A stretch of 35,658 nucleotides of DNA from contig JAUNGU010000016.1 of assembly GCA_030524315.1 (NCBI GenBank), forward strand, positions 1-35,658. Reading direction: 5' to 3'. Below are positions 29,787 through 32,436 of this stretch, one piece after another (positions within the stretch are counted from its first letter, which is position 1; each line of letters begins with the position of its first letter). The DNA is from Peptococcaceae bacterium (GTDB lineage: Bacteria > Bacillota > Peptococcia > Peptococcales > Peptococcaceae). A program made the position numbers and the translations under genes. Under the pieces are notes generated by a model that saw only the letters and a list, made by a program, of their open reading frames with translations, searched no databases and had not been told where the DNA came from.

Positions 29787-29966
29787 ATGAATAACGATCT
29801 CTATGAAGAAGGCTGCAAAAATGCTGAGCGCGTGGCTTCAAAGTTTGGCTATTACACGGCGCTCTGTGATGACGAAGTGGCCGAGCCTGAAAAGCCTGTT
29901 TCCGCTGATTGCGCCCATGCGAAAAAAGCCGTTTCAAAATATGGTATCACCCTCGTTTGTGAATAA
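29787..29966 (+). CDS. Small 59-residue cysteine-containing protein of unknown function
   Basis: ATG at 29787, TAA at 29964-29966. It begins MNNDLYEEGCKNAERVASKF and ends KKAVSKYGITLVCE, with four cysteines (10, 27, 43 and 58) and a soluble, mixed-charge composition. It has a consensus promoter 35 bp upstream, GGAAGG about 13 nt before the ATG, and a strong terminator right after the stop, so it is an independent gene rather than chance. I do not recognise the family. It lies downstream of the AAA ATPase in the same AT-richer islet, but its own promoter means it need not be co-expressed. Confidence 0.6.
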   Translation: MNNDLYEEGCKNAERVASKFGYYTALCDDEVAEPEKPVSADCAHAKKAVSKYGITLVCE

Positions 29967-29973
29967 GCATAAT

Positions 29974-30027
29974 AAAATCCCCGTTTAGTAAGATGACGAC
30001 GTGTCTTTTCCTGAACGGGGATTTTTT
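29974..30027. terminator. Terminator between the small protein and aldo/keto reductase genes
   Basis: AAAATCCCCGTTTAG pairs with CTGAACGGGGATTTT over about 15 bp (one T-G wobble), with A-rich and T-rich flanks, so it can serve both converging genes. Confidence 0.9.
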
Positions 30028-30041
30028 GCAGTTGTGAGATT

Positions 30042-31037
30042 CTAGAGCTGGTCAGTAAGATCCGGCAGGAGTGCTCGCATTTGCGCCAGATCAGCCGGAT
30101 CAATCGCCAGGGTCAGGGCGCTGGCGTTGTCTTCGACCTGCGCTGGTTTGCGGGCGCCGCAGAGCACGTGGAGGCCGTCGATCATTTGGGATGTGAGCAC
30201 AATCACCAGAGCCGCCGGCGAGCAGTGATATTTTTCGCAGAAGGGCGCCAGCGCTTCGACAAAGGCAATGCCCTGGGCGCGAATGGCTGGCTGCCAGCAT
30301 GGATTGCCGTTGCGCACGTCGCCCGGCGCAAGCACCGTGTCCATGCGTGCCTTGCCGGTGAAGAGCCCTTGCTCCAGTGGCGAATAGGCCTGAATCGAAA
30401 TGCCCAGCTCCTGGCAGACAGGCACCAGCGCCTTTTCGATGCGGCGGGTAAAGAGGCTGTATTTTTCCTGGATGACGTCCAGCTGCCCCGCCGCCGTGTA
30501 GGCGCGAATGTGCTCAGGCGTCACGTTAGAGGCGCCAATGGCGCGAAGCTTGCCCTCGCGCTTGAGCGTCTCTAGCGCATCCATCGTCTCGGCAATCGGA
30601 TAGAGATTTTGATCCGGCGACTGCCAGTGGGTGTAAATCACATCAATATAATCGGTGCCCAGTCTGCGCAGGCTCGCCTCCACATCCTCGCGGATGCTAG
30701 CTGGCGAAAGATCCCGGTAGACATCCGTCCCGTCCACCGTCTTGTGAAAAATCGGTGTCCCGTGGCGCCACTCTAACCCGCACTTGGTCGACAGCACCAC
30801 CTTGTCGCGCTTGCCCTTGAGGGCCTGGCCAACGACATTCTCGCTGTGGTAGCGGCCATAAATTGGCGCCGTATCCACCCAGACAATCCCGCGATCAATC
30901 GCCTCATGGATGGCACGAATCGACAACGCATCATCATTGTCGCCCCACCAGCTGCCACCACCAATCGCCCAAGTCCCAAGCCCCAAAAAAGGCACCGCAA
31001 TACCACTCTGGCCAATCTCACGCATCACATTCATCAT
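30042..31037 (-). CDS. Aldo/keto reductase
   Basis: A 331-residue NAD(P)H-linked reductase of aldehydes and ketones in the cytoplasm. The catalytic tetrad is complete: Asp55 and Tyr60 (VDTAPIYG), Lys85 (STKCG) and His137 (YTHWQSP). The N-terminal LGLGTWAIGGG and the later QAYSPLEQGLFTGK are typical of AKR families acting on small carbonyls, such as those near YajO/YghZ. AAAGAGGTG lies before the paired ATGs at 31037 and 31034. A consensus-like promoter stands at 31071-31100. It is a single-gene unit ending at the shared terminator. The substrate is not known. Confidence 0.93.
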   Translation of the reverse strand: MMNVMREIGQSGIAVPFLGLGTWAIGGGSWWGDNDDALSIRAIHEAIDRGIVWVDTAPIYGRYHSENVVGQALKGKRDKVVLSTKCGLEWRHGTPIFHKTVDGTDVYRDLSPASIREDVEASLRRLGTDYIDVIYTHWQSPDQNLYPIAETMDALETLKREGKLRAIGASNVTPEHIRAYTAAGQLDVIQEKYSLFTRRIEKALVPVCQELGISIQAYSPLEQGLFTGKARMDTVLAPGDVRNGNPCWQPAIRAQGIAFVEALAPFCEKYHCSPAALVIVLTSQMIDGLHVLCGARKPAQVEDNASALTLAIDPADLAQMRALLPDLTDQL

Positions 31038-31171: not shown

Positions 31172-31200
31172 TTGCAATAGCAACGGGGGCGGTGTATAAT
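31172..31200 (+). promoter_or_regulatory. Strong promoter of a gene-free transcript (candidate small RNA)
   Basis: TTGCAA and TATAAT are separated by exactly 17 bp, with a start near 31207. No open frame follows before a terminator. The 31101-31171 stretch upstream shows nothing. Confidence 0.75.
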
Positions 31201-31206
31201 CGTGTC

Positions 31207-31287
31207 AGCAGGAAATGGCGATGCCATTTCTATTTGCTGAAGAAGGCATTGGCGAGCGAGCGTGGACGCGCGTCAATGCCTTTTTAT
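31207..31287 (+). ncRNA. Candidate small RNA of about 80 nt
   Basis: Following the promoter, the transcript would fold into hairpin 1 (31206-31239: outer CAGCA/TGCTG, inner GAAATGGC/GCCATTTC around a GAT loop) and then a terminator hairpin (31243-31282: AAGGCATTG/CAATGCCTT, perfect 9 bp) followed by TTTATTTT. There is no ribosome site or credible open frame inside. It matches none of the RNA families that I can recognise by eye (not 6S, T-box, SRP or a known riboswitch class). The start is predicted from the -10 and the end from the T tract. Confidence 0.6.
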
Positions 31288-31314
31288 TTTGCAAATGCCA
31301 AGAAATGGTGACAA

Positions 31315-31341
31315 CCTACCCTGGGCGGTGGGAATTTTTTT
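31315..31341 (+). terminator. Second terminator-like hairpin before the tRNA
   Basis: CCTACC pairs with GGTGGG (6 bp, one wobble) around a 6-nt loop and is followed by AATTTTTTT. The T tract overlaps the -35 of the tRNA promoter. It would catch read-through from the small-RNA unit. Confidence 0.6.
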
Positions 31342-31368
31342 GACGAAGTTAGGCACGCATGATATACT
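31340..31368 (+). promoter_or_regulatory. Promoter of the tRNA-Arg/trxB transcript
   Basis: TTGACG and TATACT are separated by exactly 17 bp, starting transcription near 31375, about 33 nt before the tRNA. Confidence 0.82.
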
Positions 31369-31407
31369 TTAGAAAACGTCGTCATAGACAATAAATGTTG
31401 AAGCAAT

Positions 31408-31480
31408 GCCGGTGTAGCTCAGAGGATAGAGCAGTGGTTTCCTAAACCATGTGCCGCAGGTTCGACTCCTGTCACTGGCG
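31408..31480 (+). tRNA. tRNA-Arg (anticodon CCT)
   Basis: A 73-nt cloverleaf. The acceptor stem pairs GCCGGTG with CACTGGC, the D stem GCTC/GAGC, the anticodon stem GTGGT/ACCAT around loop TTCCTAA, and the T arm GCAGG-TTCGACT-CCTGT. The discriminator base is G, and CCA is not encoded. Anticodon CCU reads AGG. The gene lies 26 bp before trxB with no terminator between, so the tRNA should be cut out of the 5' end of the trxB message. Confidence 0.95.
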
Positions 31481-31506
31481 TTATAGAAAACAGGAGGATG
31501 TAAAAT

Positions 31507-32436
31507 ATGGTAGATGTAGCAATTATTGGCGCAGGGCCTGCAGGGCTGACAGCTAGTGTGTACGCGCGTCGCGCAGGCTATTCTGTGCTCGTCTTTGAAA
31601 TGGGGATGCCTGGTGGCCAGGCGTCGACGACTGATTTGGTCGAAAATTTCCCTGGCTATCCGCAGGGGATCGCTGGCGCGGAGCTTGGCATGAAATTTTA
31701 CGAGCATGCCCAGGCTTTTGAAGCCGAATTTGTTTTTGAACCGGTGGTGCGCCTGGAAGCGCAAGGGGATGTCAAAAAAGTCATCACCAACAACGGCACC
31801 GAGGAAAAAGAATATGAGGCCAAGGTTCTCATCATTGCCACTGGCGCCCATCCGCGCAAGCTTGGCGTGCCAAATGAAGACAAGTTCCGCGGCCACGGTG
31901 TCAGCTATTGTGGCACCTGCGATGGGTTCTTCTTCCGCGGCAAGGATGTCTGCGTCGTCGGCGGCGGCGATGTGGCGGTTGAGGATGCCATTTATTTGGC
32001 CAACATGTGCAACAGTGTCACTGTTTTCCATCGCCGAGATGAATTACGTGCCAACAAGCGCAGCCAGGAAGCGGCCTTTGCCAACGACAAGATTACCTTT
32101 GTCTGGGATACGGTCGTGGAACGCTTAGATGGCGACGAGCAGCTCAGCACCGTCGTGACCAAAAACGTCAAGACCGGCGAGGAAAAAGAGTGGCACTTTG
32201 ATGGTTGCTTCATCTTTGTCGGCTACGACCCAAACAAGGATGCCTATCCAGAAGGCCTCAAGGTCGACGATCGCGGCTATGTGATCACCGATGAACGCAT
32301 GGCCACCAACATTCCTGGCGTCTACGCCGTTGGCGACGTGCGTCAAAAGATTGTGCGCCAGGTGGCCACAGCCGTTGGCGATGGCGGCATCGTCATGACA
32401 GATATTGAACGCTATTTCAGAGAAGGGGCCCATTAA
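31507..32436 (+). CDS. trxB: Thioredoxin reductase
   Basis: A 309-residue flavoprotein that passes electrons to thioredoxin in the cytoplasm. FAD-binding GAGPAGL at the N-terminus, redox pair Cys135-Gly-Thr-Cys138 followed by DG, then the NADPH-site motifs GGGDVAVEDA and HRRDELRA, and the C-terminal FAD motif GVYAVGDVR. The redox motif reads CGTC rather than the usual CAT/VC. The HRRxxxRA motif supports NADPH use over the ferredoxin-dependent type found in some Clostridia. The ATG has GGAGG nine bases upstream. It follows the tRNA-Arg gene directly and its last base starts a tiny membrane-peptide gene. Confidence 0.95.
   Translation: MVDVAIIGAGPAGLTASVYARRAGYSVLVFEMGMPGGQASTTDLVENFPGYPQGIAGAELGMKFYEHAQAFEAEFVFEPVVRLEAQGDVKKVITNNGTEEKEYEAKVLIIATGAHPRKLGVPNEDKFRGHGVSYCGTCDGFFFRGKDVCVVGGGDVAVEDAIYLANMCNSVTVFHRRDELRANKRSQEAAFANDKITFVWDTVVERLDGDEQLSTVVTKNVKTGEEKEWHFDGCFIFVGYDPNKDAYPEGLKVDDRGYVITDERMATNIPGVYAVGDVRQKIVRQVATAVGDGGIVMTDIERYFREGAH

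Follow-up and report, generated by a model that had tools for sequence, protein, structure and literature searches.

Introduction

Small RNA (sRNA) genes of the class found by sRNAscanner and sRNAPredict (PMC2916834) consist of an orphan promoter with an intrinsic terminator, positioned between divergent or unrelated genes. That report puts the share of genuine sRNAs among high-scoring hits of such methods at about 40%; of 16 candidates put to the test, 6 yielded a band. Skipping-rope RNA (Rfam RF02924), which occurs elsewhere in the genome studied here, is a structured RNA that stands by itself between genes and has its promoter and terminator there. Leader-peptide attenuators combine a short frame with a hairpin and a terminator ahead of an expressed unit. 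Our literature search found nothing specific on sRNAs of the bacterial group considered here.

Herein, we analyze an intergenic segment in a 35,658-nt stretch of a Peptococcaceae genome (the window). The segment resembles the first class in its promoter, terminator and position and in a transcript predicted here at about 80 nt. It also shares the general build of skipping-rope RNA, whereas its length, sequence and structure differ from that family, to which it has no match. Unlike typical base-pairing sRNAs, the candidate is more self-structured, is known here from sequence alone and lies in a genome in which Hfq was undetected.

Results and Discussion

Architecture of the unit

The gap that holds the unit spans 369 bp, with a divergent aldo/keto reductase gene on one side and tRNA-Arg(CCT)-trxB on the other (Table 1). 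The unit's promoter and terminator share a strand at a distance of 80 nt, and the gap holds no other gene; an intergenic trans-acting sRNA is likewise expected to carry both signals itself, in the space between genes. The scan recovered the TTGCAA-17-TATAAT promoter named in the sequence-only reading that drew attention to this segment. Transcription is predicted to start near A31207, about 7 nt past the -10 element, so that the RNA would open directly with the 5′ hairpin.

Table 1. Features of the gap and its flanking genes (window coordinates)
Feature	Position	Strand	Basis or remark
Aldo/keto reductase gene, divergent	30042..31037	-	Pfam PF00248
Reductase gene promoter, TTGACA-18-GATAAT	31100-31071	-	Promoter scan
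Sigma-70-type promoter, TTGCAA-17-TATAAT	31172..31200	+	Promoter scan, 10/12 consensus matches
5′ hairpin, CAGCAGGAAATGGC / GCCATTTCT / TGCTG	31206..31239	+	Fold; pair probabilities near 1
40-codon frame, AGGA 7 nt upstream of ATG 31221	31221..31343	+	Overlaps hairpin and terminator
Intrinsic terminator, stem AAGAAGGCATTGGCG/CGTCAATGCCTTTTT, octaloop AGCGUGGA, tail TTTTTATTTT	31240..31288	+	Fold; inverted repeat
Weak second terminator-like hairpin, then T run, -8.7 kcal/mol	31315..31338	+	Just before tRNA promoter
tRNA-Arg promoter, TTGACG-17-TATACT, TG before -10	31340..31368	+	Promoter scan
tRNA-Arg (CCT)	31407..31481	+	
trxB	31507-32436	+	After tRNA-Arg; Pfam

The two-part hairpin inside CAGCA/TGCTG, also part of that reading, is present in the fold. 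It is laid out as CAGCA(G)GAAATGGC-GAT-GCCATTTC(T)ATTTGCTG, with CAGCAGGAAATGGC (31206-31219) paired to GCCATTTCT (31223-31231) and to TGCTG (31235-31239). The fold has 14 pairs, a GAT triloop, a 3-nt AUU bulge and an energy of -16.3 kcal/mol. By itself this hairpin is not exceptional, because 0.8% of 34-nt windows in this genome (54-56% GC) fold as well. The terminator starts immediately after it and carries its octaloop at 31259-31266. A hairpin and a T tract had been described correctly, while the length given, 9 bp, was too short: the fold shows a 15-bp stem with 3 further pairs inside it. Since the neighboring plus-strand genes have signals of their own, no other purpose for this terminator is evident. 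The predicted 84-nt RNA (31207-31290) folds at -41.6 kcal/mol (z = -6.68; equaled by none of 200 shuffles), and the fold is identical for start sites from 31203 to 31207. Unpaired positions are confined to the triloop, the bulge, the octaloop and single bases.

Chance expectation and genome-wide scan

The background comprised 303 kb of the same genome, made up of 267 kb of stretches and the window. Chance in the gap was modeled by 1000 dinucleotide shuffles, and a strong terminator was defined as -18 kcal/mol or better. Promoter-like sites with at least 10 of 12 consensus matches number 79 in the 303 kb, counting both strands. Some promoter-terminator unit appeared in 0.9% of the shuffles of this gap, and a promoter with a strong terminator in 0 of 1000. 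The separate parts are not rare; their combination is. The earlier suggestion that such pairing next to a promoter is unlikely by chance thus holds for the combination, which beats the shuffles, and fails for the hairpin alone. A chance arrangement that is wholly untranscribed would draw on just this frequency of promoter-like sites and of equally stable hairpins, but the joint occurrence with a comparable terminator, absent from every shuffle, leaves it very improbable.

Across 84 intergenic gaps (17.9 kb), five fully intergenic promoter-terminator units were found versus 0.19 expected in shuffles, and two versus 0.007 when the terminator had to reach -18 kcal/mol or better. Of the four units besides this one, two correspond to RNA genes already known: L080 holds a tRNA, and L070 a skipping-rope sRNA that scores 41.2 bits where RF02924 requires 36.7. 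The rule thus picks real RNA genes. Signals coordinated far above chance, together with a rule that also finds the tRNA and the Rfam sRNA, make an independent sRNA gene the best reading of the segment, and we regard it as fairly probable.

The skipping-rope sRNA lies at L070:6755-6852 (about 26755-26852 of contig G000:C79) with its own promoter and terminator. Adjoining it is a divergent 74-nt promoter-terminator unit on the other strand (L070:6599-6701).

An open frame across the unit

The sRNA claim of the sequence-only reading included the statement that no open frame or ribosome site lies within the unit. This part was wrong: AGGA-7-ATG at 31221 starts a 40-codon frame that crosses the terminator and ends at 31343, within the tRNA-Arg promoter. 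The frame could belong to a small-protein gene or a leader peptide, in which case ribosomes entering the terminator would block its hairpin and allow read-through into tRNA-Arg and trxB (attenuation). The well-spaced, Shine-Dalgarno-like AGGA and a frame open across the terminator fit such a role, and leader-peptide attenuators likewise have a short frame, a hairpin and a terminator ahead of the unit they control. Unlike in those systems, however, the downstream unit has its own promoter, a run of regulatory codons is missing, and the frame runs through the terminator to stop inside the next promoter. In addition, AGGA and ATG are buried in the 5′ hairpin, and by our own estimate a frame this long would follow a given ATG by chance in roughly one of seven cases. 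A protein search of 59 genomes found no relatives at E < 0.03 (best E = 0.03, chance level), and the frame had no Pfam match. A small-protein gene or leader peptide is therefore improbable, and the frame is probably a chance product and not a gene.

Distribution and genomic context

DNA searches of the genome itself and its relatives returned chance matches only; the best of these, where checked, fell inside open reading frames. A covariance model made from this one sequence found no homologue in 59 relatives, a sample with one genome of the genus. Its match in one distant genome (G043/L063) was set aside as chance, being a plain gene-end terminator in which only the GGCATTG arm agrees. No homologues were found in phages, plasmids or viral contigs. 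The Rfam search gave no family above its gathering score, skipping-rope RF02924 included, in line with the earlier reading, which had recognized none; the best sub-threshold matches were unrelated terminators or microRNA models (E >= 0.15). A mobile repeat was also rejected, as the unit is single-copy in the genome and has no flanking direct repeat. For young sRNAs, absence of homologues from other genera is expected, and it carries little weight for or against the candidate.

Judged by TrxB, the closest relative is G003 (69% identity), which retains tRNA-Arg-trxB and carries a different divergent gene upstream, encoding a 140-aa protein that by eye resembles a Fur-family regulator. Its gap before tRNA-Arg shows no similarity to the unit, and the reductase gene is also absent there. 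Among 45 related genomes the reductase had no relative at E <= 1e-60, and the 298 other genomes of a 299-genome phylum sample held only one, 43% identical. A scan of genome contigs with TrxB found no close relative. The rarity of the reductase gene suggests horizontal acquisition. Based on this rarity and on the different upstream gene in G003, the gap is peculiar to the present lineage, and it was perhaps created on arrival of the reductase gene.

This history bears on the main rival, transcriptional noise or a decaying remnant. Here a spurious promoter would lie in a gap of recent rearrangement, the terminator would simply insulate tRNA-Arg-trxB from stray transcription, and any short RNA would be functionless. 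The lineage-specific gap, the other upstream gene in the nearest relative with tRNA-Arg-trxB synteny, the fact that none of the 45 relatives has the adjoining reductase gene at the cut-off applied, and the lack of conservation in DNA or covariance-model searches speak for it. However, an insulator needs neither a 5′ hairpin nor its own promoter, and the coordination of promoter, compact hairpin and strong terminator exceeds chance. We consider noise or a remnant a serious but doubtful explanation.

On the far side of the reductase gene, a 59-codon frame without a Pfam match lies upstream on the plus strand (29787-29966), the reductase gene being on the opposite strand. It is followed by a terminator-like inverted repeat at 29978-30027.

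Proposed transcript and mode of action

Under the preferred reading as an sRNA gene, RNA polymerase would start near 31207 and stop near 31284-31288, releasing an RNA of about 80 nt that would consist almost entirely of the 5′ hairpin and the terminator hairpin. A discrete transcript is predicted with reasonable confidence, an estimate that combines the published success rate of about 40% with the strength of the terminator. Given a transcript, a regulatory role is roughly an even prospect.

Sealed ends favor the stability of bacterial RNAs in general, and paired 5′ and 3′ ends may likewise stabilize this RNA. It could act in trans through the exposed octaloop, GAU triloop and AUU bulge, by loop pairing with mRNA or by protein binding, independently of Hfq. 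In the absence of a classical seed, loop-mediated pairing or protein binding would be the likeliest route if the RNA is functional. The few bases left unpaired for such a seed in the modeled fold would count against the sRNA reading. So do the missing homologues among 59 relatives and missing Rfam match, the weak local pairing and the undetected Hfq and CsrA. Duplex energies with the neighboring mRNA starts (trxB and the reductase gene) are only -0.9 to -2.2 kcal/mol, and no local target is therefore proposed. Neither Hfq (PF17209) nor CsrA (PF02599) had a match in the genome, an 87%-complete assembly. A CsrA-sequestering sRNA of the CsrB/RsmZ type, which would have many GGA loops, was rejected, there being no PF02599 match in this incomplete assembly and just one GGA in a loop. 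A more specific proposal, a genus-specific, Hfq-independent regulatory RNA that is nearly seedless and acts by its terminator octaloop or by protein binding, is unlikely in that exact form. More credibly, the segment is a lineage-restricted sRNA candidate of an ordinary, common type, new only in that this one is undescribed. If transcribed, it would add an sRNA to a lineage for which the literature searched yielded no sRNA work, and a redox gene cluster would have a lineage-specific RNA gene as its neighbor, in a genome with no detected Hfq. The candidate alone changes no general picture.

Past trxB, the window continues with two genes named from their sequence, the first apparently for rubredoxin and the second apparently rpsT. 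A second TrxB-like protein with a longer frame (about 410 residues) is encoded at G000:C98:616-1521 (L051) and was also found in the other members of the family that were searched.
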